From assembly GCA_029964075.1 (NCBI GenBank), contig CM057146.1, positions 12,233,501-12,297,500 of the forward strand: a stretch of 64,000 bases of DNA, read 5' to 3'. Source of the DNA: Patiria pectinifera (taxonomy: Eukaryota; Echinodermata; Asteroidea; Valvatida; Asterinidae). Position 1 is the first letter of the stretch. Every line of letters begins with the position of its first letter. The notes below the pieces were generated by a model. That model had not been told where the DNA came from. It searched no databases and saw only the letters and a program-made list of their open reading frames with translations. The translations under genes and the position numbers were made by a program. Positions 5,465-29,206 of this stretch are shown here, in pieces.

Positions 5465-8400
5465 TTATGCATCTTCATCTAAGATTGAAAGAAACGACAA
5501 AACGGCATTAAAAGTAATAATTCATGTGACAGTGAAATCTTTTTAAATGACCATAGCATAATGGTCAGGAACATACATATTAACAACTGAAAGTGCACAA
5601 TACACTCTGGCCGTCTGGCATGAAAGTCTTGCATGAAATCTATCCTGCCTGACGCGGTCTGCGTTAACGTAGCTGCTACTACATGTAATATGTACATGTG
5701 CATGTGAATGTAGTGTGAATGTCGAATAAGTAATTGGCTACTATTCAAAGTTGAACATCAAACGGGGCACCGGTCTCCTTTTCCACACCAGTGAATGACC
5801 AAAATGAGCCCCCTATTAAAAATTTCCCCAAAAATATAGCACGCTATATACCAAGTCACATACCACGCGACTACAACTTTACGGCACATCTTGCCTCCAT
5901 TGACAAAATTTTCATTAACAACTTCACAAATTGTTGCAAACAATGTTTGTAAAGTATGTCATTTATTTTGTTTCCTTTTTTTTTAATTAAAATTTGGTAT
6001 TTCATGGGAACTTGGGGGTTCGTTTTTGGTCAATTTTTCGAGGCCCGACCGACACCAAAGTGACTTGTAGAAGCTCCTGCCAGAGCTTAAAAACAGCTGG
6101 CAGACAAAACGGGAAATTGAAATACTTTTCAGCTGCAACTAAATGTTACTACAGTGGCACGTTTTACCAATACTTCTCATGCATTTGCTTTAAGATTCAC
6201 TGATGACAATTATCAAATCACAGCAAAAAGCTACAGGCCCATCTTGTAATGATAACATTGCAAAGCTTGCATCAGTGCCAATCTCAGGAGTTTAATATCC
6301 TCAGGATCACATAGGACAGGGATAACTTTTGCTCATCATTGGAAGGCACTCAAGCTTTGTGAAGAAACAGAGCTACGCTTTGTCAAATGTCCTCTGGTGC
6401 TTACCATTGTCATCATCTTCATCTGATGAGGAGGACGTCTCTTCCGCTTCGTCGTCAGAGCTGAAGGTGTTATCGGGGATGTCGTAGATGCGAATTACAG
6501 GCTGGGTAGAGACAAAATAAAAAAACAAAAGTGAAGTTGAATTTGAAATCAAGTTTTCTGGAGAAATAGAATGTTTGGTTATAAGATGGAATTTTTACGC
6601 CGGGGTGATATTATTCAAATTAGGTTTTGCCCTTCACTGACGTTTTTAAACACTGTATACTCAGTGTGTTACCTCCCAAGTGAAAGTTGGAAAAAATCAC
6701 TCGGGTGGGCTCGAACCCACGACCTCCTGCTTTCTAGTGCAGATGTCTTACCACTCGACCATTGAGGTAACGGGATCGGTTGGCCGGTTCGAATCTGATG
6801 TACATAGCAGTGGGTACCGCATAAACTATTATAAGATGGTCGTGGGTTCGAGTCCCACCCGAGTGATTTTTTCCAACTTTCACTCGGGAGGTAACACACT
6901 GAGTATACAGTGTTTAAAAACGTCGGTGAAGGGCAAAACCTAATTTGAAGAATGTTTGGTTGTTATTAGCATTGTGCAATGAACCAGCTCTTTGCTTCAC
7001 ACACCTATATGGATTGATCTCGGAAAGTCCCTCATTAACATTCAAAAATTTCTTTAAAGTTGAAAATTCTGATAAACCAATATTAAACACATGTATCTAC
7101 ATACATATCCAACCACAAGTTTGTCAGAAATGGTTTTTCTTATTTTTGGGCGCATTTTAATAGGGTTCACGCTGCACTTCAAAAAAATCTGAAAAAAAAA
7201 CGCCAACATGAAAGTTCTCTGGAACTTTGTAGCGGGTACGTAGACTCAAGATTTATAAACGGGCACGTTTAAGAGCTTGATGAAATTTCAGTAACTGTGA
7301 AATTTGGGGTAAATTGTTTTGCTCTAGCAAGGCACTAATGGTGAAAAATCAAAGTGCGCAACATTAAGGGGCCGCACCACATTAGGGTACATTAACAATA
7401 CATTATCCCAAATTTTAAACCAGCCTGAAATCATTGGTTGCACAATGGAATTAATCCCTAATAGACAAAACCGAAATTGCAATTCTGCAGAACCCCCCCC
7501 CCCCCACCCCCCACAAATACTGCACATAAAACTTTCGCGATCCCCCTGGCAACCTGGCAGTGTATGTACATGAACAGGCAGTTAGTAAGGACAATTTTCA
7601 GTGACGGCCTTGATTGTCCACCCGGCAGGTACCAGTTCTTAGTTGAATGGGGAGTTTGGGTTGAATGGAGAGTTCAGGTGAGACACCGGACTAACGTATG
7701 TTAGAGTCATTAGTATCTCTCCAGAGACCTCGTAAATATCCATATTGGAAAGGATTTTTTTTTGACATCGGCATTATCTCCACAGACCACCTTTTAAGTT
7801 TGGGTGAGATTGATGACTGAACTTACAGTGAACTGGAACACCCACACACACACACGCACGTTTGTTCCTCTTCCTTTTTCCTTTGTATTCAAACTTTTCG
7901 CAACACCTCTCATTGGTTTTGTACACGTTTTCTAAGTAAGATTTGAGGCTTTGCATGGTGGAGATACTAAATAAAGAAAGGTTTGCGGAAACACCATGTG
8001 CGAATAATTTCTCAACTACGAGAATGGTTCTGAAAAGAACCAGAGGTATAAACTCAACGTTCCAGTCAGTATGCTCTGACTGTCTTCAGGAGAGTGCCTA
8101 AACTCTAAGAAAGTGAATACTTTCTTAGTCGTGAATACTTTCTGGTCGTCCTCGATTTGGTTCCTGTCCTCGATTCACCGATGATGTTGCATATGTGTGT
8201 CCTCGATTTACACCATTAACAAACGCACACGGACACACAGAAGAAATACGCGATCACAATATCCCCATGTATGGCAAGCCAGGGGGATGCAAAATCTAAC
8301 GGGAACAAATCCACAAAGAGGATGAGATGTTCATCTACCTTCATGGGGTCCTTGAGGATGAGGTACTTGCCCTCCTTGAGCTTGAAGCACTTGTCGATGA

Positions 8401-11400
8401 TGCAGCGCAGGATACCCCAGCAGTTCTCCATGTTCAGTGTGATCTGGGAGGCCAACTCCACGGGCTTGAACTGCTGCGAGCCCAGGATGACGTGCTTGGA
8501 GGAGTCTCGCGGGTTCAACCGGGAAACATAACTGTGAAATGAGAAACAGAATACAATTAGTATAAAGTGTCATTCTCTGGATATTCACGTCTTTCATTAA
8601 GTGCAAAGGAACTGTTCATTTACAAAAACTTCATCCCGCTAAAACTACATTCTAAAAGGTTCATACTGCACTTTTGCTTTTTCTTGTACAGTGGAATGCC
8701 GCTATACCGAACACCGCTACACCGAACATTCAGCTATGCCGAACATCGGCCTTGGCTCCCGATTTTTGTGTACAAACGGTACTGAATGTTGTTGTTGGAA
8801 AATGTCAACAAAAGAGCGACAAACGGTAACTATTTCCCCAAGGAATAGAAGGGAAAAGCCACCCGTGTATTAGCTCAAATACTGTTATTACATGATTCGT
8901 TAGTCGCACATGTTCAAAGTTGTCTTTCAGAATCTACCAGGGCATACATGGTGAAGTTCTTCTCACTGAATTGAAAAGATAAATGAACACGTTTGGTGAC
9001 TCCATTGTAAATGCAACTGCACCATAACAATGGTCAAAAGAGGGCACCACGTATGTGTGAAAAACGCTATACCGAACGATCGCCATTACGAACAATTTCT
9101 GTGGATCCTACGATGTTAGTTATGGCGATGTTCCACTGTACAATATTTGTCAATGTCATATCATGTCAAAGTCCACTGCTTTCATATTGCCCTTTTCTAA
9201 ATCCAAATTTGTAAATGTGTATTATCTGTCAAACGTTTGGTGTAGATGCTATAACCCTTAAAGCATTTTAACAAGAACCTTTATGAATCACTGAACCATT
9301 GTGCGGAACTCAATAGTATAATTAAGATTGATTTTGAAGGATTGAGTATGTGGGGGGGGGGGATTAACGAATACATTACATGGCCATGAATCATGCTGAA
9401 GCTTCTGACACCATAAATTTCAGCCACACTGAGGTTTAATTGGGCAACACTGCAGAGCAAGATAATTGTTTTTAGACCTTACCCAAATTTGATCTGATCC
9501 GATCCGCTGAGGAGGGCACACACCGTCCACTTGGACAGCTTGAAGCTGTTGTTCTTGAGCTCGGTGGCCAGCACGGCACCACGCTGAGAGTCCAGCTTCT
9601 GACGCCACTCGGCTATGCCAAGCGACTGGGGGGAAAAAGTCACAGACATTTGCTTAACAACTTCCTACACTGTGGTATTGTTTGACCTGTTTGAAAAGAT
9701 CACGAATGGTGTAACATAAAGACAAGTCTGGAGAAGTTTGTGGAATATGTGATAGTTTTTGCCAAATCTGACTGGATGGGGGTTGAATATGAGATACTGG
9801 TGGTCACAAATGCAGAGAAAATAAAGTAAGGTTACTATGTTCATCAGGGTATGGGTATCTAACCGATTCACAATTGTGATGCGATCAAGCTAAATGAGTC
9901 ATTTGTCGGCAATTTTGATTTTAAGATACAGCCTAAAATAGGTCAGTAGGGCTGGAAATTTCAAAATTGACTATTTTGTAAAATCGGAAGGCTACATATA
10001 TGTCCTCTTTCATGTCAACTTTTTTTTTTCTGAGAAAAACTCACAATAAAATAGTTAAAATGTGACATTTTTGCTGAGGAGTTAATAGTCAATAACCTGA
10101 AATAAAGCATGTTTGTTGTTGCTTCGTAAACACTTCAGTTTTGAATGGTTGATTTCTCTGTTTGGTTTCTCTGTTTTCTTCTTTCTGATCTGCCTGTGTT
10201 CTAAGTCCCATAACTTCTGAACGGAAGGTCGTATTCACACAGGGTTTTCACCAAATATAAACTAAAAGATAGATCTATTCAATAATGAAAAAAAAAAGTG
10301 ATAAGGGCCGACAAACGACTCATTTATATTGATCGCATCACAATAAACAGAGTATAGGGGCCAAAAGCATCAGTTGACTAACTGAAGTTTTACATTACAT
10401 AGAGTAGGCCTCAATCGTTTCTACTGCAATGCCTTTCACTTGATACTTTGTTTTCGCATGGTGTATTTTGCAGCTGACATCTGCAGTGGATTGTTTAATT
10501 TCAAAGACACCTTTCTCAGCCAGTTGATATCCTCATGCTCACAATAGGACAGGGATAACTTTGCTCATCATCGGAAGGTATGTTTCAAACAGATTTAAAA
10601 GACAAGGTTCGTATTTTTATGTGGCCTCAAGAACTGTTTGAAATGATCTAGAATGGTATTACATAAAGAAAATTCAGGGGAAGTGTGTGAAATATGTGAT
10701 AGTTTTTGCCAAATTTGACTGGACAGGGGTTGCATATTATACAAATATTGAATATTGCTCCGAATAATGTAGTAAAACTAGCCTCCCGAGGTGATCCATG
10801 AAGCATTCTATTTTTCCCGAGGCGATGCCGAGGAAAAATAGAATGCTCCATGGATCACCGAGGGAGGATAGTTTTACTTCACCAAGAGATAAGTGGTCAA
10901 TATTTGTTTTATAACACCTCTCCTACAGATTCTGCTTGATTTTAAGCGATAACTGATTTGAATACAATAAAAAATTACTTCTATTTGAATACAAAATTTG
11001 TTGAAATTTAATTTGCACTTTTTCTAACTATCCCTTCACGAAATGTTTGAACCCAGCTCTGTAGCGCTCGCGCTTGGAAACAGTACGCACAACGTACCCC
11101 TATGCATTCTGCACACAGTGCGTATAGTACTTTGGTTGCTACAGGTATAGTACTTTGGTTGCTACAGGTATAGTACTTTGGTTGCTATGGGTATAGTACT
11201 TTTGGCCATGCACTGAAAGATAGCAAAAATAGAAAGTGTCATGTGACTCACTCTCGGCCAATGAAGACACAGAATCTGTGGGTGAGGTGTTATAAGAGAA
11301 ACTGGTGCTCACCAATTGCCTACATCAACTGTGAACAGATGTAAACTACAATTCTGAGCAAAACCTAAGTGTGCTTTGGACGTTCTCGAAAATATACAAA

Positions 11401-14400
11401 TTTTAGGGGTCATGTCCCTGTAAGAACGGAATTGCCCAATTTATATTTTGTGTACGAAACTACTTTTTAGATTTCAACAACATTTCAAAACTCAACTTTT
11501 GTTCTAGATTTCCAAGACGTCTATCTCCTTCGTGACAAATCCATTTTTATGGCAAAGCAAGAATTGTTTATGCCGTACCTTAGAATCCCACTCGTTGAGC
11601 GTCTTGATGCTGACAAACTGCGTCTCCCCGTTAGAGCCCATCATGACACTGTCATGCTCACATCGTACAATAATATCCAGGTCATCGCCCACGTTGTACT
11701 TACGATACCTGGACGTCAGACAGGGAATGCCAATGTCAGTCAAGGAATGAGAAAAACTCACAAATCTTCTAATGGACAAGGAATCCCCTATACAGTATGT
11801 CCCCAAAAAAATGTCGGTCGGACTATTTTTGAAATGACTACAAACCACCGACGTCAATTTATTTTTTGTTTCTTTATTTTGCAGATACTCCTTATTCTTG
11901 GCCTAAACTCCGGAGTTTCATTTGTTTTTTTTTTATCACGCCTCACTACACAATGGTCAATTAATCACAGCAACATTTTTGAGCAACTTTTTGTGACCAA
12001 GTTCCTTGCCTTAACCCCAACTCCCTCGGCTTTTTTGCTAGGATGTGTAGCCTCAATCATGCCAAATCCTCCAATTGCCCTCATTAAAAAAAATAGCATA
12101 TAAATAGCTTCAATCATGCCAATTCCTCCATCACTTCTTGAATGTGGTCCGTGGAGGGGTGACCACTGCCTGAATCCTGCAAAATCCTGCGGCAGTGACT
12201 GTCAGTATGTTCAGGCTTGGCCAGTGACGGAGCAGTACGGAGGATTTCAAGCATAATCCAGGCATATATTAATGCATGGCTGAGCAAAAACAACACAAGG
12301 TCCGGCCCAAGACCTTGACAAAGTGCATCCTACGAAATCAGTAAGGCACTTTTGCCATGTAACCTCAATCCTCCCAATTCCTCCACTTTTGCAAAGAGGA
12401 TTTTGAAAGATTCAGGGCAGTTGTGGTTAATCAATTTCTGTGTACGTGCATGACATATCGTAGGGATACGAAGCGTCACAGCGCTGTGATGCATCGTGAG
12501 TTGATTTTCATTTACAATGCAAAACACAAGACTGCTGAGACCCAGCAGTCGGTATTCGGACAATAAAAGGCAGCGATCGTCCTTACCTGTATCCAACCGA
12601 GGCGACTTCCGAGTCGTCATCTTCTTGGAATGGATTGGACTTGTCAAATTTGTACCTTTCACCATTCTGTTTGAAGAAATGTTCATTTGCATTAACAAGA
12701 TTGGAAAAAAAAATCATTTGCATTAGAAAGATATACTCAACTTCAGAGTACCACCAAGTTCAGTAGCACATCCTTTGTACCAATTTGACATCTAGACCCC
12801 GCATACATTTAGCACACATCCATCTCCACAAAATGCCAGCGTTTGCCAGGGTAGGTGGTTACACCCCTCCCCCATCCCCAAGTGAAAAGAAGGCACCTGC
12901 TGCGGTTACTGTTATAGATTGAGTTTTGTTCCCCAATTCTGGAATCCTACTAGTCTAGGGGCTAGATGTTGTTGCAGTTGGATACGTGATAACCCGCAGC
13001 CCCAATAAGCCCCCGCCGCGAGAGGGCGCTATCACGACCAGCCTATATCACCCACGAACCCGTCGGAATGTCTGGGCCAGTTCCTACTGGTTGTGTAATG
13101 CGCGCATCTGTTTGGCCTAATATATGCAGTGCGCAATTTAAAAGATTTGCAGCACTTCCGAAGCAAACTCTCAAATTTTTTCCAATACTATAAAAAAATG
13201 CAGCACGACTTTTGTACAACTTCACTGGTCAGCTTTTTTGTTGTGTGTAGTATGTGTGGGACTGAAAATGGACCGAACTTGCCTGCAGAAGTCGTGCATG
13301 CCTACTAGTTGCCACTATTTTTCGACGGGGAGATTTTAAGAGTTGGACTAGACGTTGCTACTGACAAGTTCATGGGTGATATTGGTTGGTTGTGATAGCG
13401 CCCTCTTGCGGCGGTGGCGGGTGATCACTCATCGAGTTATCGCGAATCAAACCATAACAACGTCTAGCCCCTAGACTAGAATCCTACAAGCCTGAGCACC
13501 CATCACATGCGCATTCCATTCTGCATAGCTCTGAACATGTCACTGTAGGTGAGTGCATTGTGCAAAATACCACTCTGGTAATCATAAGAAGGCTGGGCAA
13601 CACGGATATAGTCTATACCAACCTTTTTGAGACACTGCTGGGAGAAGTTGTGGTTGATGAAGGTGGCTTCTAGGGCCAGGTTGCGGGGGGAGTTCATATG
13701 GTTACCCTCGTCCTGTGGGGTCTCAATGGCTGTCTCATTCACCGTCAGCAAATCTGGAAATAAAAGATGCGATCAAATCAGTTTTACACATTATTGTATT
13801 TCAAGGTTTATTCACGTAAATGTACCATGGAGAACTGGCTTTGATTAAAAAAAAAAACCCAGAAGTTAATCCTTGGATAACAGCAGTAAATCCAACTCCA
13901 AAAGGTAAAACGTTATTCAAAGTTCAACCCTAGCTCCCTTTAGCATGATTTACTAGGAACCATACCCATCTTCGCAAATTCCAACACCATATGGGAAAAT
14001 GCACACACGTATTTCTGACTTTGATTCTGGCGGCGTGCCAACTCAATGTAAAAGACCGTCAGTTTAGGGGTACTGTACCCATCCCGGCAGATTCCAACAA
14101 AACATGCCGTTGGGTTTTGATGGGTTGAGTTCTGTTAGGGTTAAGGAAGACTTCTTTAGGTTTCATATACACTTACCAAATTCTGGGTCATCTCTCTTGT
14201 CAAAGAAGAGCTTGCCACCAACATGCTGAAAAAAATGCAGAGAAAACAAAAACTCAGCCTGCTATTTTAATCAAGGTATCATTATGGTATCTAACCGATT
14301 CTTAATTGTCCATTACTAACAGAGTGTAAATCATCACTTGATTGAAGTTAAGGGCTGTGCATCGGAGCTAGGTACCCGAGTACCCGACCGCTGATGTCAG

Positions 14401-17400
14401 GAATCGATTCCCGATTATGGAATCGAGTACCCATGATTAACATTACATATTGCTTAGTAACTTCTCAGACAATGAAAATGAAAGGTTTTGAATGACATTT
14501 TTGGAGAATTTTTAAAATGAAAACCAGGCTACATGAAAAAAAAAAAACGATTCACATTAATGACGCCTGCGAAAAAGCAATTTACACCTTAAAGTTACAT
14601 GTATTGAGCTCACTGTACACACTTGTATCTTGTATCGATGCACTAATGTGGTAGTATTACCATGCGGACTTATGAAGAATCTGTACCGCAACTTCCGAGA
14701 TTTAAATTTTGGGGTTGGGTTTCTTTAACAGGTACCCGATTCCTCTACTACCTGTAAATGCTGAAGTTTTACGCCAGATAGAGTAGGCCTCAATTGTTTC
14801 TCCTGCAATGCCTTTTATTTAATACTTTGGTATGGTGCATTTTGCAACTGATGGATTGTTTAACTTTGGAGACACCTTTCTCAGCCAGTTGCTATCCTCA
14901 TGCTCACAATAGGACAGGGATAACTTTGCTCATCATTGGAAGGTATGTTTCAAACAGAGGAAAGAATGTAGAGATCGAGAGCCAGACGCTTTGGTTGTGT
15001 ACAAAGTCTATAGAGAGTTGAGTGCATTTTCTAACAAAGTTGGAAATGTTTCTCAGTTCGACATTCATGTCTTTTTAACATTTTTGCAATGACTGACCTT
15101 CATTGAGGTAATATATGTTGGAAAAAAGTGGCGTCAGCGTGCAACATTTGTTCCCAAAAAGATTTAACAGACAAGGTTTGTAACTTTATGTTGCCTCAAG
15201 ATGTGTTTATAGGCAACGACGAAAGACGGCATAAACTGTGATTCACTGTATTTTGGGAATCTTCTTATATGGGTGCGCTCATTCTAGGAATGTAATGACT
15301 ACAGGTAAGGCAGGAATGCAAGTAAAACTAGATAACATTCATTTAACAAGGGTGACTAAATCTGTAAATCAGTAAGAATTTCTTCAGCTAATGTGGGTCA
15401 CTAAAACTGAGCTCCTCCATTTTCTTACCTGCACGACAATATCCCAAGAGTAGACAGAGCGCGTGCAGCACATCAGAGTGGCCAAAATGATGTCGGTGGC
15501 GAATACCTTGCCTTTTCCTGCCAACTGTATCAGAGGAAAATTGACACAGTGATCAATTAATGAATAGCCCAATTCAGAATAATGTCAAGTTGGAAATAAC
15601 AGCACTTGATGATTTTTTTACTTGAAAATGTATGTAAAAATGTGTATGTAATTTATTTACAGGTATGTGGGTAATTTAACAAATATCTTATCTTATCTTC
15701 CTTCAAACAATCTTGCTTCACACATAGTTCCCGACAATTTATGAACCATACGTCAGTGCAACAGTGAACAGTGCCCATCTCAGTACAGTGTTTATCCTCA
15801 TGATCACATCAGACAGGGATAACTTTAGTTCATCATTGGAGGGCACTGAAGAAATACTTCTTTTTAAACCTTTTTACTTGTGCAGAACCACATTTTCCAA
15901 AGTATGCCCGAAATATGTTCAGTCAGGTGGATTACCCATAACCCAGCCTTTTTGGGTCGGGGGGGGGGGGGGGGTTAATGGATGGGTAGGGGTTTTTTTA
16001 TGGTTACCTATGTAAGCATTTGTATGAACATATGTAGTACAGTTTCGATGAATATTGGTGACCAAAATTTAAAAGAAACCATGTTTTCTTGGAGTTTCCT
16101 TTCATCAAAACACTAGAAAATCTATTCAGAAACAGTTCCAGTTGATATTCATGTGCAGTTTCATTACGACAAATAAATGAAGTCACCAAAAAACTACATC
16201 ATGAACTTGAGTGACTTGTACTTGTAGTGCCTACCTTTCTGATGATTGGGTCGTCCGTGGTGGTGACCTTGTGGAAGATGCGATTGACCCTGGCTAGTCT
16301 CCGTTGAGACTTGGTGGTGATCCGGTCAAAGGTCTTGTCATAGTACTCCATCTCTCCACATGTTACCCTGACAAGCGTAAAAACCAAACCACGATCGGGG
16401 TGCTTGAAAAGAGACTCATGAAAAATGGAGTCAGTTGATTTTGGAGGATGCATTGTGTACGTTGCATTGTTTATGTTTAGTCATGCATAAATGTAGGCTT
16501 TTGATATACTGGATATCATCCCCAATGCTACTGGATAAAATCTGTACAACTCCAAAGTAATTTGGAGGATTTTGAAGGATGGAGGCAGTTGGCTCCCCTC
16601 AACTGAACACATTCAATAATGGACGACTTTGGAGGATTGAGACTGTATGAATTTTTTTACATAGTGGTAGCTGGAGGATTTTGCAGTTTTAAGGTTGCAT
16701 CCTAGCAAAAAAGGCCTGGGGTTAGAGTTCATCTTAATATGATTTTGAAACTACAGTTTCATTACATAATATAGATGTGAATCCTTTTCAAACCTGCATT
16801 CTCTGATCATGACACACATACACACAAAACAACTGTCAAAAAAAGAACCTAAATAAGGGCTGAAGGTACCATCATCAGAACGTCTTAATTATCCACAGGT
16901 TTTATGATTTCTCGGCCAGGGATAACTTCATTCATCATTGGAAGGTACAACCAGATTCAATGAACTATTACTGAAAGATGACGAGGACGAAGAACATGTA
17001 CTGGTTTACAGTTTTCCTTGATAAACAAACAAAAGAAAGAAAGAAAATCAGCGGTGGATCCAGTCAGAAGCCATACACTAAACTCACAGGTCTTCCGACT
17101 CGGAGACGTCCGGGTAGCGGAGCTTGTTGAGCCGAGGAAAGTCCAGCTCTTCTATGACCTCCCACTCGCTGCGGACCTGCACCGAGGCACTCCGGGTCTT
17201 CACCGGGCCCTGGGTTGTGAACAAAAGAGGAAAAAAAAGTTTACCCTTTCGCTCAAAGCAATGTTGCAGTTGAGGTCCTCACCAGTCCTCTGAAGTCTAT
17301 CACAAGTCCTTGAAAGTCTTCCAAAGTTCTCACTTATTTATAACAGGTCCTCAAGTCTCAAATCAAGTCACAACCTTCACACACAGGGTGAATTTAAAAA

Positions 17401-20400
17401 AACGAAACCCAAATGTCGGGCCCATTGTTTTAGTGAAGTTCTGCATGTAGCACTTTCAAAATGTAGGATATGAAAGCCCAATTCGGAAGCTTTCTTTTAG
17501 TACAAGAATCTTTCAAATCACTCGTGTACTTTTCAAGTTACGGAATTTTCAACACAACCACCGTTTTAAAGTTCTGTCCACGGATCACAAAACAGGTGTG
17601 CGCTCTTTCAGCAAAACGAAAACAATTCACACACATCGCTATGTTATTTGCTTTCGTTTTGCTGAAAAAACACTTGCCTTCTTGTGATCCGTGGACAGAA
17701 CTTTAAAACGGTGGTTGTGTTTAAAATTTAAAACTTAGTACACGAGTGATGTGAATGATTCATATACTACAAGAAAGCTTATGAATTGGGCTTTCATGTC
17801 CTAGGTTTTGAAAGTGCGACATGCAGAACTTCACTAAAACAATGGGCCCGACATTCAGGTTTTGCTTTATTTGACTCACACTGTATTCAAATGGACTGTG
17901 AAACAAAGTGTTCCTTTTTTATTGTTCGTCCCCTGTTACTTGTGACTTGCGAGGGGACTTGTGATGTACCTTTGTAGCCATCCGAAAAAGTAACTGGCGT
18001 TTTATTGTTGAAAAACATACTTGGTAAGTAGACTAAACTCCCAGTGAAATTAATCTTTCTTGCAAGCTATCATTTTAGAAAAATTTAAATTAGTAGTTCG
18101 TTTTGTTATTCGGCGCAGCGCGCGCAAGCATTGGCACGATGCACAGGCGTGCGCAGTTGCTATAATTCGTCGGACCAGTGCGCGACATCGCGTATACATG
18201 TAGCTGCAATTCAAAACAATTCAAAACATGATTCAGCAACGTTTGATTTGAAATTGAGATCCTAGAATGCTGTTTTTCTCGGAATATGCAGCTGAAGCTG
18301 AGCTGAAACTTCATCAGGTTAGTTGTTCAGTATCCTTAATTAGATTTTGAACACTTTTGTTGCTTCAAACGAACAAAATGCACAAATTACAAATGATGGA
18401 TTATATCTTTAACCCCAACCCCATAAGTGGTTTACTAGGAACTTTCTTCACTCCTACAATTCCAACACCATATGGTAACTTACTAGGAACCTTCCTCATC
18501 CTTGCAAATCCCAAAACCATATGGTAGACTGTGCACATTAACAGTTGGACTCTGTTTATATGTGGTATGCCTAATGCCACGTAAAGCACAGTAAGTTTAC
18601 TATAATGTAGTACACATCCCAACAGATTCCAACAAACCCTGGTGTTGGAGTTTGGCTGGTTGGAGATCGTTAGGGTTAACGACTGTTGACAGAGAATAAA
18701 ACTACACTCGCGATAATTTTTATGTGCCGTTTTCATCGACTTTTCACCAAATTATCTACGAAATAATGATTTAAATAAAATGACATATTGTGGAAAAATC
18801 GTTAAAAAATCCAATTTTGTGGGACAAATTGTAAGAAACTCAGAAATTTTGTTGGAAAAGTCAAAAAGTCAGATTTCCGATTAAAATTTGAAAAGTCTCA
18901 TCTCTGAATTTAGTTATTTATTATTTATTTGTATTTATTATTTCTTTCTTTCCAGTGATGAAACCAAGGATTCCTCAAAAGTGCCCTAGGCACTGTAGCT
19001 CGAAAGCCTAAAGAAATCTGCAGAGAGAAGACAATAAGAGACTACAGTTTTAGAAGTGGGAGAAAAACCCCAAAATATTCTGGGGAAAACCCACGGTAGC
19101 ACTAGCAGGTAGGGACTGAAAACCCAATCCATATGTGATGGGACAGGAATCAAACCCGGCACAGTGGTGGAAGGCGAGGACAGTAACCTCTGCACCAACC
19201 TGACTCCCCTTAGCAATTTGGATGCCCTATTTTCTCATTTTTGCTGCCCCGAAACAGCCAAAGAAACATCCTGCTTTCCATTGACTGACTGACTGACTGA
19301 CTGACTGACTTGAGGAAAAATAATATCAAATCTTCCATCAAAGAAACTTACTTCACACATAGTTCCCTAAAATGTATGTAAATGTACCATAGGTCAATGC
19401 AACAGTGCCCAGCTCAGTACAGTCTATATCCTCAAGTTCAAATCAGACAGGGATAACTATAGTTCATCATTGGAGGGCACTGAAGAAAATGGTTGAAATA
19501 TTTTTTAAATGGATACCTAAAGCATTTGTATGAACATATGTAGTACAGTTTCAGGAATTTGAGTGACCAAAAAATAAAAGAAACAATATTTTCCTGGAGT
19601 TTGCCTTAACTAAGACTTCAGGGCCAAGCTCGACTGGGCAAACCTTGTCTTGTTAACCCTACATGTAACCCTGCTAAATGCAACAGAAAGCAACAAAGGT
19701 AAAAAGTTGTTGCATATGTTGCATTGAGCAGCCAACTCAAGTCACGGTGCTCTGTTGCATCTTGTTGCATTTAGCAGGGTAACTGCTCATAGGTCCGAGG
19801 CAATACAACGAACTCCACTGTTGCATTTAGCAGGGTCACTGCTTGGTACCACGGCTGGTATGCAATGGGTTCACTAACCATGCTAAATGCAACAGAAAGC
19901 AACAAAGGTAAAAAGTTGTTGCATACTGTTTCATTGAGCAGCCAACTAAAGTCACTGTGCTCCGTTACATCTTTCTTGTTGCATTTTAGCAGGGTAACTG
20001 CTCATAGGTCCGAGGCAATACATCAGAATCCACTGTTGCATTTAGCAGGGTCACTGCTTGGTACCAAGGCTGGTATGCAATGGGTTCACTAACCATGCTA
20101 AATGCAACAGAAAGCAACAAAGGTAAAAAGTGGTTGCATACTGTAGCATTGGGCAGCCAACTCAAGTCACAGTGCTCTGTTGCATCTTGTTGCATTTAGC
20201 AGGGTAACTGCTCATAGGTCCAAGGCAATACAACAGAATCCACTGTTGCATTTAGCAATGTAACTGCTTGCTACCAAGGCTGGTATGCACTGGGTTCACT
20301 AACCATGCTAAATGCAACAGCAAGCAACAAAGGTAAAAAGTTGTTGCATACTGTAGCATTGGGCAGCCAACTCAAGTCACAGTGCTCTGTTGCATCTTGT

Positions 20401-23400
20401 TGCATTTAGCAGGGTAACTGCTCATAGGTCCGAGGCAATACATCAGAATCTGCTGTTGCATTTGGTTGCATTTAAGCAGGGTAAGTGCTTGGTGTCAAGG
20501 CTGGTGCATCCTGGCTTCACTGCACAATGCAACGGAATCCACCGTTGCAGTTGGAGCATTTAGCAGGGTTCTCATTTCAATTGTGTTGGACATTGTTGCA
20601 TTTAGCAGGGTACATCAAGAAAACCCGATGAGGATTAGGATTAATCTGCAAACATGTGTGTCAAACCTTACCTGTTACAGAAAAGACAAGTTGCCCTTTT
20701 CTAAAAGCCAAATCACTGAAATGCATACAAAGAGTGTCCTGAGTCTGCACTCACCGAAGCTTTCCAGAATCGGTTGTTGCCCTTGTCCGACCACTTCTGG
20801 CGTCCTTTACCGTACTGCTTCTGCAGCCGGCGCACCTGTCGTTGTCGCTCCTTCTGGGCCTTGGTCAGCGTCTGCATGTTGACCTGCTGCTGACGCTGCT
20901 CCCGCCGATCACGATCGCGTCGCATAGTGCGTTGCTGCAAGGATGCACAAAACAAAGGATGTCACTTAGTGAGTGCAACAGTAAAGAGAAAGCTTTACTG
21001 TTGAATTAAACGGACATTTCATCCTGGAATGTGTCCCATTGAGCTGCAAAACGCATTTTAAGCCAAATGACGTGAATAGTCTCTGGTCAGTGCGTGCGTC
21101 GATTTTGATCATTGAGCCTCAATCTTTTTTTTCTTTTGTTTTCACATTTTTTTGCGGTAGCTACAACAGCCCCCTCCACGGCCAGACTGCCACAAATGTT
21201 CGTACCCAAGGAGCACCAAGGAATGGGGAAGGGCACCAAGGCAAATGATGGAGGGCACCAAGGCAAATGATGGAGGGCACCAACAAGCAAAATGGTACCC
21301 ATCTTGTTTGTACAATCCAAGCTTGAAAAAGACAAAGGCATCGTCGCATAAATTCCAGCACTTTGGTCTGACCAGGGACCGACTTATATAGTTAGCCCTT
21401 TTTTTTTTGGCCTAACAGCAAAATCAAAATTCCAAATGAAATTATGGTTAAAGGCTACCGGATGCAAAGCCGAGGCAACCTTTTGTATTCATAGAAGTGT
21501 CCATATTTTTTTTTGGGGGGGGGAGAAGGAGGAGGGAGTTACCTTTTCCACGGGAATACATGGAATCCATACCATAATTCACACAGACACATATTCTGTT
21601 TTACCTGAGTAAAGCGCATCCGGTTGCGCAAGTAGATGGGTTTCTGGGTCCGCGCCGTATCTACCAGCTGGAATGAGGATTCATCTTGCTCATGGTAGTA
21701 GGTGTACTGGTTACCAGACCCAAACTGAGATGAGTACTTCCCTGTGATATGGGATTGAAATAATACAAGCCATGCTGCAGTCATCGACGATGGACACCTG
21801 CACCCGATTTCACGAAGCGCTGCGACGCGTCGCAACTCGAGTTACGACGTGTAACACGTCGCAACTCGAGTTACGACGTGTAACACGTCGCAACTCGCGA
21901 CGCGTCGTATCTTCCATTTCACGAAAGTTGCGATGTGTTGAACGCATCGTAAGTTCCTTGACAACGGCTTTAAACAAGTCCCAAGTTAAGACGTGTCTTG
22001 TGGTCGTCGCAAAATAAGAAGAGTAATTTCTAAGCCAGTTTTATGCCATAAACATTACATTAACAAGATTATATTACCGAGGCAATGTGTGAAAAGTTGT
22101 TAATAGAAAATTCATTGAATAATTATGAATTAGACCGGAATATTAGAATTGAAATTTCAAAGTAGCTATACAGTCCAATGAGAGATTTTTTTTTCCTTCA
22201 AAATTGCATTGCATGGCCGCCATTTTGTTTTACGTTTTAACAAATTTCGAGCTGAGATCCGACGACTCTTTGTTGAATATCAGACGACTATTTACTGTAC
22301 GCTGACTAAAGACATAAAACAGTCACCGAGTTGTGCTATAAATACACCTACGACGCGTCGCACGTACGACGTGTTTTGTGAAACGGATCGCAGGACGCAT
22401 CGCAGCTGCGACGCATCGTAGAGATACGACGCGTCGCATCTCTGCGATGCATCGTAAGTTACGAAGGGTTTGATGAAATCGGGTGCTGGTATGAAAGCCA
22501 ACTTGAAACCCTCTCAAATGCTTCTCAATAAGCCTCTGTACTGAAGACGTCACACATTGCTTACGTGTGCGCTTTTCTATGGGGCTTTTCCACAAGGCCT
22601 GACTGAAATGTTGCGCAGCGTTAAATGTTGCGCAATAAATTGTGGCGCAAGTCCAACGCAATTGCTTGAATAGGCTGCTGGTGTTTTAGAAGATTGTGGC
22701 TTCAACAGGACCAAAAATAATCAATAAGGTGTTTCACGGTAATAATGCGCCATCTTGCTCACGGGCCTGACGGGGCACAAAAAACACATTGCAAGACGCG
22801 GGCGCATTTTGGAAAAACCGCATGATGACTTTTGGAAGCGTCGAAGTTTTCCATTGACAACGATGCATGCGTGTACTCCTAGAACTATGAGGCTCCACGT
22901 AGTGGAACCTCATAGATGAAGAACCCCGCAAAATTGTTTTCAGCACAAAACACTAATTAAGTACAAAAACGTCCATCAAAATGCAGACATTTCCCACAGA
23001 ACCGCTGCACAGTTTGCCCCCAAACCCCGTACTACACCTCATGACATACTCACGTAATATTTGCAGAACAAACATCGCTGGATTCTGTTGTTTTTTTTGG
23101 CTAAAATGATGAAAAATATGCCCTTTCCGCACTGAGCCAACCTGACACTTGAAACATGCACGCATATGATCCATCCATCCAGCGATGATTTTTCGATTCG
23201 CTCGGAGCGCGCCACTACGTGGAGCCTCATAGTTCTAGGAGTAGCATGCGTACACAGCAAAGGGTGTAAAATCACTACAAGGGGCCATGGGCAAGACGAC
23301 CATGATGGCACATACCGACGCTGTGATTGTGAAACACCTTGACCTTATTTCATTCATAATCATATCTGAACTTAGCTTGAGTAACTCCAGCTGACATGCT

Positions 23401-24626
23401 CCATATTCATTCACATGTAACGCTGGAGGCAAAACCTGTTCGTTAGAATGTGATAGCAAGAGACCCTAAAAAAATGGCCTCTCAAAAATTGTTCATTTTC
23501 ACCCCTAATATCCCACCCCAGAGTTCATTTACATACCTCATACATTCAGCAGTCATTTACGAAGCCTAATGTCATGATCGACTTGAAACAGACCAAAAAA
23601 AGTGAAAAATGTTGTCGATTTCAATGGCTTGTCCGTAAAAATACGCCAGTTCCAACGGCTGTCTTCCATTTTGTTTTCCTAATTATGTAAATGTATGCAT
23701 CACGTGATGACATCAAAAAAAATTCTGCGCCCGCGATGTATGTCGGTACCAAACCGCTTTCAGGCGCCGCAAGTGAGTTTAATTTTCGTCTGGTGCGTTG
23801 CTGTGGAGAGCATTCTCGTTGTCTTGCTTTCTGCGACAACGCACCAGACGAAAATTGAACTCACTTGCGGCGCCTGAAAGCGGTGTGGTACCCGTATACA
23901 TCGCGCGCGCAGATTTTTTTTGATGTCATCACGTGATGCATACATTTACATAATTAGGAAAACAAAATGGAAGACAGCCGTTGGAACTGGCGTATTTTTA
24001 CGGACAAGCCACCGAAATCGTCAAGATTTTTCACTTTTTTTTGGTCTGTTTCAAGTCGATCATGACATTAGGCTTCGTAAATGACTGCTGAATGTATGAG
24101 TTATGTAAATGAACTCTGGGGTGGGATATTAGAGGTGAAAATGAACAATTTTTGAGAGGCCATTTTTTTAGGGTCTCTTGCTACCACATTCTAATGAACA
24201 GGTTTTGCCTCCAGTGTTACATCATACATACATGACATGTGAATGAATATGAGCATGTCATGCATGTCAGCTGGAGTTACTCGAATTTCGGAGTTACTCA
24301 AGCTAATCTGAACTCATCTTACCTAAGTATCTCTTGTCTTGGTATGTCGCACCAGTCCAGTCAGACACCTTTAAAGAAAAGTGTATTTAGTTTTTTCAAT
24401 GACAGAGCACATTACGTGTAATTCAGCATGGGGCAAAATGGTATTGGGGCGAAGTGACAAAGGCAAAGGCTCGGCGACCAAAGCCGGACGCTTACTGTAC
24501 CTTGCCAAGTCGATCTCCTTTTGAAAACGGCTGATACGGAATATCTTTGAACTTCTCCGGTACCGCACACGGCCCCCAACCAGTAGGATTCTCCTGGATG
24601 ACAGGAGCGACGAAATGTGCCGACAT
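5465..24626 (-). CDS. EIF3D: Eukaryotic translation initiation factor 3 subunit D, complete
   Basis: eIF3d is a cytoplasmic subunit of the eIF3 complex that recruits mRNA to the 40S ribosome and can bind the 5' cap. Fifteen coding exons were read in transcription order: 24626-24501, 24368-24323, 21741-21605, 20934-20755, 17209-17088, 16367-16235, 15524-15429, 14225-14177, 13753-13623, 12666-12587, 11708-11579, 9625-9483, 8531-8339, 6501-6405, 5478-5465. They sum to 1677 nt, 558 residues plus stop (human about 548). All junctions keep frame with GT-AG borders. Family landmarks in order: [158 protein letters not shown], and an acidic [23 protein letters not shown]-like tail. The start is the conserved N-terminus with A at -3. 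Six introns carry snoRNAs. Confidence 0.97.
6274..6350 (-). ncRNA. C/D-box snoRNA copy A, snR38/SNORD1-like (EIF3D intron 14)
   Basis: On the minus strand: terminal stem AGTGCC/GGCACT, C box ATGATGA, guide AGTTATCCCTGT, degenerate D' box CCTA, C'-like TGAGGA, D box CTGA (6284-6287). The guide is complementary to 28S rRNA ACAGGGATAACT near the peptidyl-transferase centre. The D'+5 rule points to the second G of GGG, equivalent to yeast 25S Gm2815, the known target of snR38 (human SNORD1 family). It begins 54 nt downstream of the exon 14 donor. Confidence 0.85.
6568..6961. mobile_element. Palindromic tRNA-related element with 13-bp flanking repeats
   Basis: Inverted arms (about 6614-6715 and 6840-6949, nearly identical) each contain GTGGGTTCGAG(C/T)CCAC, a tRNA B box and T-arm. 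The left arm, read on the minus strand, also shows an A-box-like TGGTCGAGTGGTAAGAC, so there are two head-to-head tRNA-like units. AGAATGTTTGGTT occurs on both sides (6568-6580 and 6949-6961), a likely target duplication of SINE/LINE length. It lies in EIF3D intron 13. Confidence 0.7.
8689..9138. mobile_element. pogo/Tigger-like MITE
   Basis: Ends are CAGTGGAATGCCGCTATACC and a complement ending GGCGATGTTCCACTG, flanked by TA on both sides (8687-8688, 9139-9140). CAGTGGAA...GCTATA.CGAAC termini with TA duplication are typical of pogo/Tigger elements. Internal copies of the TACCGAAC motif occur near both ends. It is 450 bp, has no transposase, and lies in EIF3D intron 12. Confidence 0.75.
9685..9800. 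repeat. Direct repeat within EIF3D intron 11, copy 1
   Basis: The segment from GTTTGAAAAGATCACGAATG to TGATAGTTTTTGCCAAATCT recurs as 10633-10735 in the same orientation at clear but imperfect identity. The copies flank a snoRNA and a TIR element, showing local duplication inside the intron. Confidence 0.65.
9873..10344. mobile_element. TIR element (MITE-like) in EIF3D intron 11
   Basis: Left end ATTGTGATGCGATCAAGC plus AATGAGTC.TTTGTCGGC is mirrored on the right by GCCGACAAACGACTCATTTA plus GATCGCATCACAAT. The inverted repeat is about 38-40 bp and the total about 470 bp. The interior has no coding sequence. A related intron 7 segment (about 14283-14350) appears to lack it. Confidence 0.6.
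10509..10579 (-). ncRNA. C/D-box snoRNA copy B, snR38/SNORD1-like (EIF3D intron 11)
   Basis: Stem ACCTT/AAGGT, C box GATGATGA, guide AGTTATCCCTGT, degenerate D' box CCTA, C'-like TGAGGA, D box CTGA (10516-10519). The 12-nt guide matches 28S ACAGGGATAACT. Flanking DNA (about 10365-10590) resembles 14760-14955 around copy C, so the two arose by duplication. Confidence 0.85.
10633..10735. repeat. Direct repeat within EIF3D intron 11, copy 2
   Basis: Second copy of 9685-9800, containing AATATGTGATAGTTTTTGCC. It is more divergent at its 5' end. Confidence 0.6.
10771..10878. repeat. Hairpin-forming inverted repeat
   Basis: Arms AGTAAAACTAGCCTCCCGAG and GGAGGATAGTTTTACT enclose a GTGATCCATG.AGCATTCTAT stem and a CCCGAGGCGATGCCGAGG centre. 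Arms are about 45 bp with a few mismatches. Confidence 0.7.
11122..11205. repeat. 23-bp tandem repeat, about 3.5 copies
   Basis: GTATAGTACTTTGGTTGCTA begins at 11122, 11145, 11168 and, partially, 11191. The array lies in EIF3D intron 11. Confidence 0.85.
11985..12385 (-). repeat. Dispersed repeat (related to 16555-16745)
   Basis: Contains CCTTAACCCCAACTCC.CGGC, TTTTTTGCTAGGATG and several CAATCCTCCAATT-type motifs. Reverse-complement relatives (GGAGGATTGAG, CATCCTAGCAAAAAAGGC) occur at 16555-16745 in intron 5. It is non-coding, in EIF3D intron 10. Confidence 0.5.
12942..13487. mobile_element. TIR element with 9-bp target duplication GAATCCTAC
   Basis: Element 12951-13478 (528 bp) has termini TAGTCTAGGGGCTAGA and TCTAGCCCCTAGACTA, an exact inverted repeat. 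GAATCCTAC lies on both sides (12942-12950, 13479-13487). Subterminal GATAAC and GCGCTATCAC motifs are mirrored too. A 9-bp duplication fits Mutator-like or related DNA transposons. No transposase; EIF3D intron 9. Confidence 0.85.
13925..14155 (-). repeat. Dispersed repeat family R1, copy 2
   Basis: Reverse orientation relative to 2850-3065, sharing TTTACTAGGAACC, AAATTCCAACACCATATGG, GCAGATTCCAACAAAAC and CTGTTAGGGTTAAGG. In EIF3D intron 8. Confidence 0.6.
14874..14944 (-). ncRNA. C/D-box snoRNA copy C, snR38/SNORD1-like (EIF3D intron 7)
   Basis: Near twin of copy B: stem ACCTT/AAGGT, C box ATGATGA, guide AGTTATCCCTGT, D' box CCTA, C'-like TGAGGA, D box CTGA (14881-14884). Flanks share GAAGTTTTAC, ATAGAGTAGGCCTCAAT and TGCAATGCCTTT with the copy B locus. 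Confidence 0.87.
15769..15848 (-). ncRNA. C/D-box snoRNA copy D, snR38/SNORD1-like (EIF3D intron 6)
   Basis: Canonical copy. An 8-bp terminal stem CAGTGCCC/GGGCACTG encloses C box ATGATGA, guide AGTTATCCCTGT, a perfect D' box CTGA immediately after the guide, C'-like TGAGGA, and D box CTGA (15780-15783). The perfect D' lets the +5 rule be applied exactly: the fifth nucleotide pairs with the second G of 28S ACAGGGATAACT. Confidence 0.92.
16865..16948 (-). ncRNA. C/D-box snoRNA copy E, divergent snR38/SNORD1-like (EIF3D intron 5)
   Basis: Stem GTACC/GGTAC, C box ATGATGA, guide AGTTATCCCTG followed by G instead of T, D'-like CCGA, D box CTGA (16875-16878). Eleven guide nucleotides match 28S. 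The 3' half is unrelated to the other copies. It is the most divergent member and may be a pseudogene. Confidence 0.7.
17383..17884. mobile_element. 502-bp palindromic foldback element in EIF3D intron 4
   Basis: Nearly the whole element is inverted repeat around about 17630. GGGCCCATTGTTTTAGTGAA (left) is mirrored by TTCACTAAAACAATGGGCCC (right), and TTCTGTCCACGGATCACAA by TTGTGATCCGTGGACAGAA. Ends are ACAGGGTGA and a degenerate complement. It has no coding sequence and no clear target duplication. Confidence 0.8.
18415..18680 (-). repeat. Dispersed repeat family R1, copy 3
   Basis: Longest R1 copy, with TTTACTAGGAACTTTC, ACACCATATGGTAACTTACT, CAACAGATTCCAACAAACCC and ATCGTTAGGGTTAACG. Internal direct duplication of the TTACTAGGAAC segment. 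In EIF3D intron 4. Confidence 0.65.
18905..18948. repeat. AT-rich (TTTA/ATTT)n microsatellite
   Basis: Imperfect tetranucleotide repeats (TTATTTATTATTTATTTG) directly abut the minus-strand SINE, as expected of a SINE tail. Confidence 0.75.
18955..19212 (-). mobile_element. tRNA-derived SINE, minus strand
   Basis: Minus-strand head has a B box GGGTTTGATTCC and an A-box-like GGTGCAGAGGTTACTG, followed by a body (TATGGATTGGGTTTTCAGTC, CTTTCGAGCTACAGTGCC) and an AT-rich tail toward 18905. The head-body-tail order supports a near-complete SINE of about 260 bp. Confidence 0.7.
19283..19312. repeat. (GACT)n microsatellite
   Basis: About seven perfect GACT/TGAC units in EIF3D intron 4. Confidence 0.95.
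19403..19482 (-). ncRNA. C/D-box snoRNA copy F, snR38/SNORD1-like (EIF3D intron 4)
   Basis: Twin of copy D: stem CAGTGCCC/GGGCACTG, C box ATGATGA, guide AGTTATCCCTGT, perfect D' box CTGA (19443-19446), C'-like TGAGGA, D box CTGA (19414-19417). Flanks share CTTCACACATAGTTCCC and CATTTGTATGAACATATGTA with the copy D locus. Confidence 0.92.
19655..20612. repeat. Tandem array, about 213-bp unit, 4-5 copies
   Basis: AACCATGCTAAATGCAACAG begins at about 19875, 20091 and 20301, with degenerate units on both sides. Each unit contains GTTGCATTTAGCAGGGT and its complement-like GCTAAATGCAACAG, so it can fold on itself. In EIF3D intron 4, no reading frame. Confidence 0.85.
21062..21412. mobile_element. 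Harbinger-like MITE, copy 1
   Basis: The right end CC(GACTTATATAG)..TTTTTTTTGGCC with flanking TAA and the left end GCCAAA...AGTCTCTGGTCAG mirror each other (right: CTGACCAGGGAC). The interior has tandem GGCACCAAGGCAAATGATGGA-like units, also found in the copy at 57705-58051, confirming family membership. In EIF3D intron 3. Confidence 0.65.
21800..22486. mobile_element. TIR element with CG-rich palindromic subrepeats
   Basis: Termini are GCACCCGATTTCA and TGAAATCGGGTGC, exact inverse complements. Subterminal zones are built of ACGACGTGTAACACGTCGCA and CGCAACTCGAGTTACGAC palindromes at the left and GACGCGTCGCA units at the right. The interior (about 21975-22325) is AT-rich. It is 687 bp in EIF3D intron 2 and has no transposase. 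Confidence 0.75.
22865..23251. mobile_element. TIR element with 8-bp target duplication GCATGCGT
   Basis: Element 22874-23243 (370 bp) has ends TACTCCTAGAACTATGAGGC and its inverse ending GTTCTAGGAGTA. GCATGCGT lies on each side (22865-22872, 23244-23251), with one extra base at the left edge. An 8-bp duplication fits hAT-like elements. In EIF3D intron 2. Confidence 0.75.
23364..24314. mobile_element. 933-bp foldback MITE, TAGCTTGAG family, 9-bp target duplication
   Basis: Element 23373-24305 begins TAGCTTGAGTAACTCCAGCT and ends with the inverse GTTACTCAAGCTA. ATCTGAACT flanks both sides (23364-23372, 24306-24314). The two arms, about 450 bp each, are close inverse copies meeting near 23830. 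A 93-bp relative with the same ends is at 59659-59751. It sits 8 bp from EIF3D exon 2. Confidence 0.9.
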
Positions 24627-27882: not shown

Positions 27883-28290
27883 TTTCATTATTTGCGCGAT
27901 GTTTAATATATTTGTGCGATGTTTTACAATATATGTGCGATGTTCAATATATGTGTGCGATGTTTTACATTTATATGCGATTTTCAATTTATATGTGCGA
28001 TGTTTTTGACGATATATATGTGCGATGTTTTCAATATTATGTTCGATTTTTTGCATTAAATGTGCGATGTTTTTCGATACAATTGTGTGTGTTGTTCTAC
28101 AATATAATATTTGCGATATTCTCAAATTTGTGAGCAATGTTTTACACATAATTATGTTTGACATTTCGAGCTATTTGTATTCGATGTTCCATCGGTATGT
28201 TTAACATACCGATTTTTTTTGCATTCGATCTTTTGCAATATGCATTTGATATTTCCCTTTTCATTCGATGTTTCTTTAAGAGTCAAAGTC
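27883..28290. repeat. Foldback outer domain, left: short GCGATGTTT subrepeats
   Basis: Degenerate units of about 17-22 bp such as GTGCGATGTTTTACAATATA, repeated about 15 times. Mirrored at 38230-38690. Confidence 0.85.
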
Positions 28291-28378
28291 TGGTTACTAG
28301 ACCGCGAAAGTCTGACTATTTTGCCTAAAGTCAGTGTATGAGACGTCAGGGGATCGCGTAAAGTGATTAGAGCCAGAC

Positions 28379-28591
28379 CTAAACGGTAAAAACCGGAATT
28401 GTGGGTAATTCTTTAAGCATACGCAATGCGTTCATCATTGTTTGGGCAGTACCCCCAGCTGTGCCTGTACTACCCATAGTGTTATGTGCATCATCTATGC
28501 ATTGAGGAGTGCATGACACATGGTCTGAGCTCCAAGGCCGATGTGCACCTGTCCCGTTTAATGATCCAGTTACCTGATAATTTGTTAGCAT
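28379..28591. other. Unique foldback segment with 70-codon open frame (left copy)
   Basis: A minus-strand frame starting MLTNYQVTGSLNGTGAHRPW matches exactly, at protein level, a plus-strand frame at 37920-38132. I recognise no family. Identity probably reflects arm homogeneity rather than selection for a protein. Confidence 0.5.
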
Positions 28592-28833
28592 AAGCTGATG
28601 TAAAATTGGGCAAAATTAGATGTTTATGAGAAAAAAATTCAAATTGTAAGGGGTTAACCTTGCATTTTTTTTTTAGCAAAATCGGGGAAAATCAGATGTT
28701 TCTGGAAAATTGCAGATTGTATGGGGTTAGATGTTTATGAAACATTTCAAATTGTAAGGGGTGAACATTGCATATTTTAGCGAAATTGGGCAAAATCAAA
28801 TGTTTCCGAAAAATTTCAGATGTAAGGGATTAA

Positions 28834-29206
28834 GGCCAAAAAAAAAGTCTCCGGTTTCTGGTATGCGCGCGCGTCACCGTAGCCATGCGCGTCGGCAAAA
28901 TGAAAAAGTTTTTATTTTCAATAAACGATGATGTCTCAAAACCGCCAAACTCACTGGTTTGACTGGAATCCTGCTGCTGCAAAATTTTAACGTGTTTTTA
29001 GATGGGGCTATGATCGAGAATAAGCCTTATGTGGCCTCTCTGGTCTCCCATAATATTTGCACTAAGTTTAGTCGGGCACCATTTGCAGTCATCAGCCGAC
29101 ATTTGAAGCCAAAAAAAAACAGGTAAAAAAAAAAAACCAAGCCGCGTCGCCGCACCACCTTTTGGGCAAGCTCCATACCAGAAACCGGAGACTTTTTTTT
29201 TGGGCC
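28834..29206. mobile_element. Harbinger-like MITE, copy 2, in the foldback left arm
   Basis: Ends GGCCAAAAAAAAAGTCTCCG and inverse ending TTTTTTTTTGGGCC, plus GGTTTCTGGTATG/CATACCAGAAACC. Flanked by TAA on both sides (28831-28833, 29207-29209), inside the TTAACC motif of the 68-bp minisatellite. A TWA duplication fits PIF/Harbinger. Confidence 0.8.

Follow-up and report, generated by a model that had tools for sequence, protein, structure and literature searches.

Six related copies of one box C/D small nucleolar RNA (snoRNA) lie within the EIF3D gene of the sea star Patiria pectinifera, and this observation is confirmed. The DNA analyzed, here called the window, is a stretch of 64,000 nucleotides (nt) from contig CM057146.1 (assembly GCA_029964075.1, positions 12,233,501 to 12,297,500). 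We consider it highly probable that the copies are paralogues of the snoR38/SNORD1/snR38 family that arose by repeated intronic duplication in a single host, are spliced out, and guide methylation of 28S ribosomal RNA (rRNA). That reading is based on the anatomy of the copies, covariation in their terminal stem, the fit of their guide to the 28S rRNA of other eukaryotes, their intronic sense position, and conservation above that of the flanking DNA. The initial annotation of the window had called six copies, one per EIF3D intron and sense to the gene, and all were found at those places on the minus strand, in a host identified as EIF3D by matches to PF05091 and PDB.

6270..6353, minus strand, snoRNA copy c1: intron 14; C box 6333-6339; guide 6316-6327 (12/12); D' box CCTA; D box 6284-6287
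10502..10585, minus strand, snoRNA copy c2: intron 11; guide 10549-10560 (12/12); D' box CCTA
14867..14950, minus strand, snoRNA copy c3: intron 7; guide 14914-14925 (12/12); D' box CCTA; flanks in common with c2
15766..15850, minus strand, snoRNA copy c4: intron 6; guide 15813-15824 (12/12); D' box CTGA; stem of 8 base pairs (bp)
16861..16952, minus strand, snoRNA copy c5: intron 5; most divergent copy; guide 16916-16927 (11/12); D' box CCGA
19400..19484, minus strand, snoRNA copy c6: intron 4; guide 19447-19458 (12/12); D' box CTGA; flanks in common with c4

The C and D boxes of the six copies are those of a C/D snoRNA. A C box, a CTGA D box and a terminal stem had been annotated in each; none of the six departs from the C box sequence ATGATGA or from that D box, and stems of 5 to 8 bp are present. 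The C' box reads UGAGGA in five copies and UGUGGA in c5 by a script that searched for UGNGGA. The D' box is CTGA in c4 and c6, the only two copies in which the canonical sequence directly follows the guide, as had been claimed; it is CCTA in c1 to c3 and CCGA in c5. Five copies carry the guide, AGTTATCCCTGT, without change, and that of c5 has a single mismatch adjoining D'. A composite pattern of C box, guide, and D box (ATGATGA-N2..6-AGTTATCCCTG-N25..50-CTGA) matched at the six loci only in the 64 kb (in seven rows, with one locus accounting for two) and had no match in 100 dinucleotide shuffles. When the guide was searched at two mismatches, two unrelated plus-strand matches appeared besides the copies for a total of eight, and because 11 of 100 shuffles reach that total, the loose guide search alone proves nothing.

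Further searches gave the following. A generic scan of the whole window (stem of at least 4 bp, at most 2 nt from the boxes) returned c4, c6, and three unrelated plus-strand stretches. A second scan (C box, D box, and stem of at least 6 bp) returned exactly five of the six copies on the EIF3D sense strand, c5 falling under the stem cutoff, and none on the antisense strand; 100 Markov-1 control sequences averaged 0.38 hits, with a maximum of 3. Moreover, a covariance model built from the five copies other than c5 recovered c5 at an E value of 9.9e-7 and found no further copies in the 64-kb window up to an E value of 10.

The terminal stem, with compensatory changes between copies, is supported. 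It measures 8 bp in c4 and c6, 7 in c2 and c3, 6 in c1, and 5 in c5, and that of c1 can be extended to 14 bp around a 4-nt bulge. Covariation was counted in a five-copy alignment (A3, c5 left out) against 500 shuffles: 90.0% of stem cells are paired compared to a shuffled mean of 75.1% (0/500 as high), eight cells are changed on both sides compared to 3.6 in shuffles (0/500 as high), and the covariation score is 0.575 (1/500 as high). Sliding the stem register lowers pairing to 25 to 50%. With all six copies in an alignment fitted to the structure, pairing is 85.4% (1/500 shuffles).

How the copies would select their target was assessed on 28S rRNA from species other than that of the window. 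Eight 28S stretches (L001 to L008) were fetched by the target sequence itself, so that the presence of the site in 8/8 reflects how they were chosen; four were given to Rfam, and all four were eukaryotic large-subunit rRNA. We note that the eight are eukaryotic-type 28S within contigs filed under bacterial metagenome-assembled genomes, where they are probably contamination. No match to the target pattern was found in viral contigs. On L003 and L004, the guide, directly 5' of D', is complementary to ...ACAGGGAUAACU..., and the longest match before D' is ACAGGGATAACT. Twelve Watson-Crick pairs start directly at D' in five copies, whereas c5 forms 11 that begin one base farther from D', in agreement with the annotated guide lengths of 12 and 11 nt. 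In controls with 20 shuffled 28S and 18S sequences per copy, the longest pairings averaged 7.2 to 8.3, with single maxima up to 12. The +5 rule applied to this pairing selects the middle G of GGG in ACAGGG, the G that the initial annotation had predicted as the snR38/SNORD1 site. We take this exact G of the triplet to be the published methylation site. The portion of PMC8817022 consulted groups as equivalents Gm2815 (snR38), Gm4362 (snR38A/B/C), and Gm2805 (AtsnoR38Y), and an excerpt of PMC3511168 numbers the yeast site Gm2812. Since D' has the same position relative to the guide in every copy, the selected G would not change if the altered D' boxes are used. The copies thus very probably direct methylation in the catalytic region of the ribosome, as predicted from their complementarity.

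Mechanistically, each snoRNA is most likely released from a spliced EIF3D intron, and its C/D kink-turn would be bound by the standard proteins of C/D small nucleolar ribonucleoproteins, namely, fibrillarin, NOP56, NOP58, and 15.5K. The D'-proximal element would then pair with the 28S site, fibrillarin would methylate its middle G (Gm2815/Gm4362) at the 2'-OH, and the extra copies may raise or buffer dosage.

Family membership is clearest for c4. The gathering score of RF00213 (snoR38; yeast snR38, plant snoR38Y, human SNORD1A/B/C) is 45 bits, and the copies score 45.9 (c4), 43.5 (c5), 43.2 (c6), 35.0 (c1), 26.5 (c2), and 25.9 (c3). A comparison with the Rfam snR38/SNORD1 models had been proposed in the initial annotation: all six copies match RF00213, but only c4 reaches the gathering score. 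Since 45.9 exceeds 45, c4 qualifies for the family under the Rfam criterion itself, and we place c1, c2, c3, c5, and c6 in the family through homology to c4. The low scores are due in part to a short spacer before the guide, as 13 or 14 model positions are deleted there in the alignments of c1, c3, c4, c5, and c6. The copies share with RF00213 the boxes, the guide and its place ahead of D', the G predicted as target, a short terminal stem, and an intronic location as in vertebrates; they differ in the shorter C-to-guide spacer, in how few reach the gathering score, and in being sixfold in EIF3D. The human host of SNORD1A/B/C is SNHG16. In chicken, the part of PMC2653536 available lists an RF00213-type snoRNA once, in intron 2 of ENSGALG00000001886. 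Two other families are partly alike. RF01647 (ceN61, Caenorhabditis) has a C-to-C' half nearly the same as that of c4 (35.7 bits), but c4 is under its gathering score of 60 and the D-proximal half differs. The consensus of RF02293 (TtnuCD17, Tetrahymena) contains this guide as well, with CCUA rather than CUGA at the D' position, the variant of c1 to c3; the match, however, is 26.3 bits against a gathering score of 75, and the remaining molecule aligns poorly. We conclude that the CCTA variant is not obviously dead, since a family consensus carries it after the same guide; shared descent is not implied.

Several results weigh against six working guides of this family. Four copies (c1, c2, c3, and c5) have a noncanonical D' box, five do not pass the gathering score of RF00213, and c2 and c3 are poor matches to that model (E values of 1.7 and 2.3). 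Stem pairs with a double change number four of eight, which 162 of 500 shuffles reach and which is not unusual alone, and further stem pair types are few, with 488 of 500 shuffles having at least as many. The molecules as a whole fold as single strands with unremarkable energies (z, -0.33 to -1.97). One of two conservation tests against flanking DNA is marginal without gap columns (c4/c6, below), and the copies lie 244 to 2,193 nt from the 3' splice site, whereas the most abundant human C/D snoRNAs are mostly within 100 nt. Perhaps, only c4 and c6 (and possibly c1) are working guides and c2, c3, and c5 are decaying or silent, as is common in vertebrate genomes. We hold this to be possible but rather doubtful. 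The canonical D' of c4 and c6 only, the low RF00213 scores of c2 and c3, and the combination in c5 of a guide mismatch beside D' with a 5-bp stem all favor it. Decay, however, does not sit easily with C and D boxes that are exact in all six copies or with a perfect 12-nt guide in five, even though c1 and c5 have no alignable flanks; nor does it explain why the snoRNA itself hardly differs between c2 and c3 while their flanks diverge, and the Tetrahymena consensus again carries the same CCUA after the same guide. Excerpted text of PMC10234308 states that C' and D' boxes are often degenerate. Alternatively, the array could be subfunctionalized for dosage: c4 and c6 would provide full methylation of the G in the peptidyl-transferase region, c1 to c3 (CCUA) and c5 (CCGA) weaker or conditional methylation, EIF3D expression and the fraction of modified ribosomes would be cotuned, and all copies would be processed without closeness to the 3' splice site. 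We think this elaboration improbable.

How the copies came to lie in EIF3D is suggested by their flanks. Two pairs of copies sit in duplicated intronic segments.

10382..10639, minus strand, duplicated intronic segment around c2: homologous to 14761-15208 around c3, with about 200 nt more between the matching blocks on the c3 side
15681..16101, minus strand, duplicated intronic segment around c4: homologous to 19316-19607 around c6; the gap between blocks is 138 nt here and 13 nt near c6

With the snoRNA included, the c2/c3 alignment is 212 nt long (84.9% identity) and the c4/c6 alignment 180 nt long (80.6%); two further matching blocks, one of 54 nt and one of 110 nt, have an identity of about 85%. 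Copies c1 and c5 match the others over the snoRNA or part of it only, with no alignable flanks. Pairwise identity is 94% for c2/c3 and 91% for c4/c6; c1 is at 81% to c4, 79% to c6, and 71 to 74% to c2/c3, c2 and c3 are at 64 to 70% to c4 and c6, and c5 is at 61 to 65% to all. The set is thus cis-duplicated over six introns, always in sense, with duplicated flanks for c2/c3 and c4/c6 but not for c1 and c5, and the pattern fits repeated copying of intronic DNA inside EIF3D. The pairwise identities, which are not a tree, fit c5 being either the oldest or the fastest-changing branch.

Conservation within the duplicated segments is higher in the snoRNA than in the alignable flanks. Identity is 97.4% in the snoRNA compared to 86.8% in the flanks for c2/c3 (2 of 77 snoRNA positions differ) and 91.7% compared to 81.9% for c4/c6. 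With gap columns as differences, the one-sided P values for the snoRNA exceeding its flanks are 3.4e-5 (c2/c3) and 3.1e-4 (c4/c6); without gap columns, they are 0.008 and 0.051. The flanks were limited to their BLAST-alignable parts, which works against the test.

A snoRNA-derived mobile element, or retroposon, that landed in EIF3D by chance would be another source of multiple copies, and c1 and c5, whose homology to the other copies ends near or inside the snoRNA ends, look like what such an element might leave. We find this very unlikely. All six copies lie in one gene in sense, with none elsewhere in the 64-kb window; uniform independent placement gives 1.1e-5 for such an outcome, though copies made in cis are not independent. 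Moreover, c2/c3 and c4/c6 share intronic flanks well past the snoRNA, and neither an A-tail nor a target-site duplication was seen by eye. Duplication of intronic DNA in cis therefore remains the preferred origin.

The host was rebuilt as a spliced gene from the minus strand, with GT donors for exons 1 to 14, AG acceptors for exons 2 to 14, and the frame kept throughout.

5479..24626, minus strand, EIF3D host gene: begins with the start codon (24626) and is given as far as the point where intron 14 is inferred to end; exons 1 to 14 below are all coding
24626-24501, minus strand, exon 1, coding
24368-24323, minus strand, exon 2
21741-21605, minus strand, exon 3
20934-20755, minus strand, exon 4
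17209-17088, minus strand, exon 5
16367-16235, minus strand, exon 6
15524-15429, minus strand, exon 7
14225-14177, minus strand, exon 8
13753-13623, minus strand, exon 9
12666-12587, minus strand, exon 10
11708-11579, minus strand, exon 11
9625-9483, minus strand, exon 12
8531-8339, minus strand, exon 13
6501-6405, minus strand, exon 14
5465..5478, minus strand, exon 15 (last), inferred start: would encode -DEDA and stop, a tail too short for a homology test

The conceptual protein, 554 amino acids before the last exon, matches PF05091 (eIF-3_zeta) at 710 bits over the whole model and eIF3d chains in PDB at up to 838 bits. A last exon from 5478, reading G and then ATGAAGATGCATAA, would close the frame and was the best of three acid-rich candidates by its pyrimidine tract. 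All six copies are sense to EIF3D and in separate introns (4, 5, 6, 7, 11, and 14), which needs no special explanation, since six random placements in EIF3D introns fall in different introns 16% of the time. The distance to the 3' splice site is 883 nt for c2, 648 for c3, 244 for c4, 497 for c5, 2,193 for c6, and, if exon 15 is right, 795 for c1; c1 is about 50 nt from the 5' splice site. According to the part of PMC8178906 at hand, the most abundant human C/D snoRNAs are for the most part at most 100 nt from the 3' splice site, and fewer lie farther upstream; a further literature excerpt describes some snoRNAs farther from the branchpoint than the presumed optimum.

Outside the D' guide, the element that precedes the D box varies from copy to copy. 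On L003 and L004 rRNA, it gives best runs of 7 or 8 Watson-Crick pairs in c1, c3, c4, and c5, 10 pairs in c2 on L004 28S (at most 9 in 20 shuffles), and 10 pairs, TACAGTCTAT, in c6 on L003 28S (at most 8 in 20 shuffles). The sequence TACAGTCTAT was not found in the other seven of the eight 28S loci, several of them partial. A second guide upstream of D in c2 and c6 is unproven, as each match occurs in one of two 28S sequences only, both from other species. Perhaps, the array works chiefly in cis, and the snoRNAs pair with introns of the host and so regulate how EIF3D is spliced or how much of it is made; excerpts of PMC10324135 offer a precedent in intronic snoRNAs that act on host splicing, and intron 13 contains, at 6657, a perfect 11-nt complement to the element upstream of D in c4 (at most 9 in 10 shuffles). 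That match, however, is next to or within an inverted repeat and is absent from the other copies, seven of the eight distinct guide elements show no better pairing in the host than in shuffled sequence, and the part that is conserved is the D' guide, which fits rRNA. We regard a chiefly cis-acting array as very unlikely.

Arrays of this kind are known. The initial annotation had called a six-copy guide array in a translation-factor gene unusual and not described, and that claim is at best weakly supported in view of reports of cis expansion and of translation-related hosts in the portions of PMC8178906 and PMC2653536 consulted, which leave the EIF3D host and the number six as possibly new. In those portions, cis recombination is said to have put most members of a human C/D family into a shared host, and many snoRNA host genes serve the ribosome or translation (PMC8178906), while almost all chicken snoRNA paralogues come from intragenic duplication, hosts include EIF4G1 and EIF3S10 (the latter for H/ACA snoRNAs), and one C/D snoRNA has four copies in introns 1 to 4 of one host (PMC2653536). 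Thus, the array is a good example of a well-known arrangement rather than unheard of. Like it, chicken GGgCD57 (four copies, introns 1 to 4 of one host) and human SNORD12 and SNORD58 in RPL17 place copies of a C/D snoRNA in different introns of a host, but families, hosts, and copy numbers differ. Neither EIF3D as a host of snR38/SNORD1 nor a six-copy array was found among the literature matches listed (in two cases, for example, 15 of 69 and 25 of 844), including those on EIF3D, SNORD, and amphioxus snoRNAs. In the available part of the Drosophila preprint PMC13228274, the only match to eIF3, G2703, snR38, or SNORD1 was SNORD116 in the reference list. Less usual, and perhaps new, are EIF3D as a host, a copy number of six, the noncanonical D' in four copies, and the long distances to the 3' splice site. 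The array leaves the understanding of snoRNAs unchanged, and it documents a host and a copy expansion of an ancient guide family, which the excerpt of PMC3511168 counts with the families that date back to the last common eukaryotic ancestor. The six paralogues, whose guides are almost identical and whose D' boxes are of three kinds, also form a natural series for gauging the importance of D' sequence and splice-site distance.

Other repeats occur in EIF3D introns. Intron 13 holds a 116-nt inverted repeat (6610-6953; arms 6610-6724 and 6838-6953, 97%), and a tRNA-like stretch at 6705-6761 (RF00005, 29.6 bits; gathering score, 29) overlaps the inner end of one arm; the repeat is perhaps tRNA derived. 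In intron 11, a near-perfect hairpin of about 80 to 110 nt (10781-10882) hits several unrelated microRNA models on both strands, under their gathering scores, and is more like a small inverted-repeat element than a microRNA. Intron 4 contains a 210-bp tandem repeat in 3.8 copies (19666-20463), rich in TTGCATTTAGCAGGG and upstream of c6 in the transcript, and a long imperfect palindrome recognized by eye (17420-17860; ACCACCGTTTTAAAGTTCTGTCCACGGATCACAA and its reverse complement farther on).

Beyond EIF3D, positions 27883-38603 form a very large inverted repeat of seven nested arm pairs (180 to 972 nt, 94 to 99% complementary) that surrounds arrays of an approximately 68-bp tandem unit at 31009-32912 and, inverted, at 32941-35355; either a palindromic mobile element of large size or a fold-back in the assembly could account for it. 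A 151-amino-acid open frame on the minus strand (48386-48841) presumably resembles the start of a JmjC/JMJD8-type protein. Finally, TACATGTA occurs 12 times in the 64 kb, an abundance in keeping with marine invertebrates, compared to about one occurrence expected at a uniform base rate.

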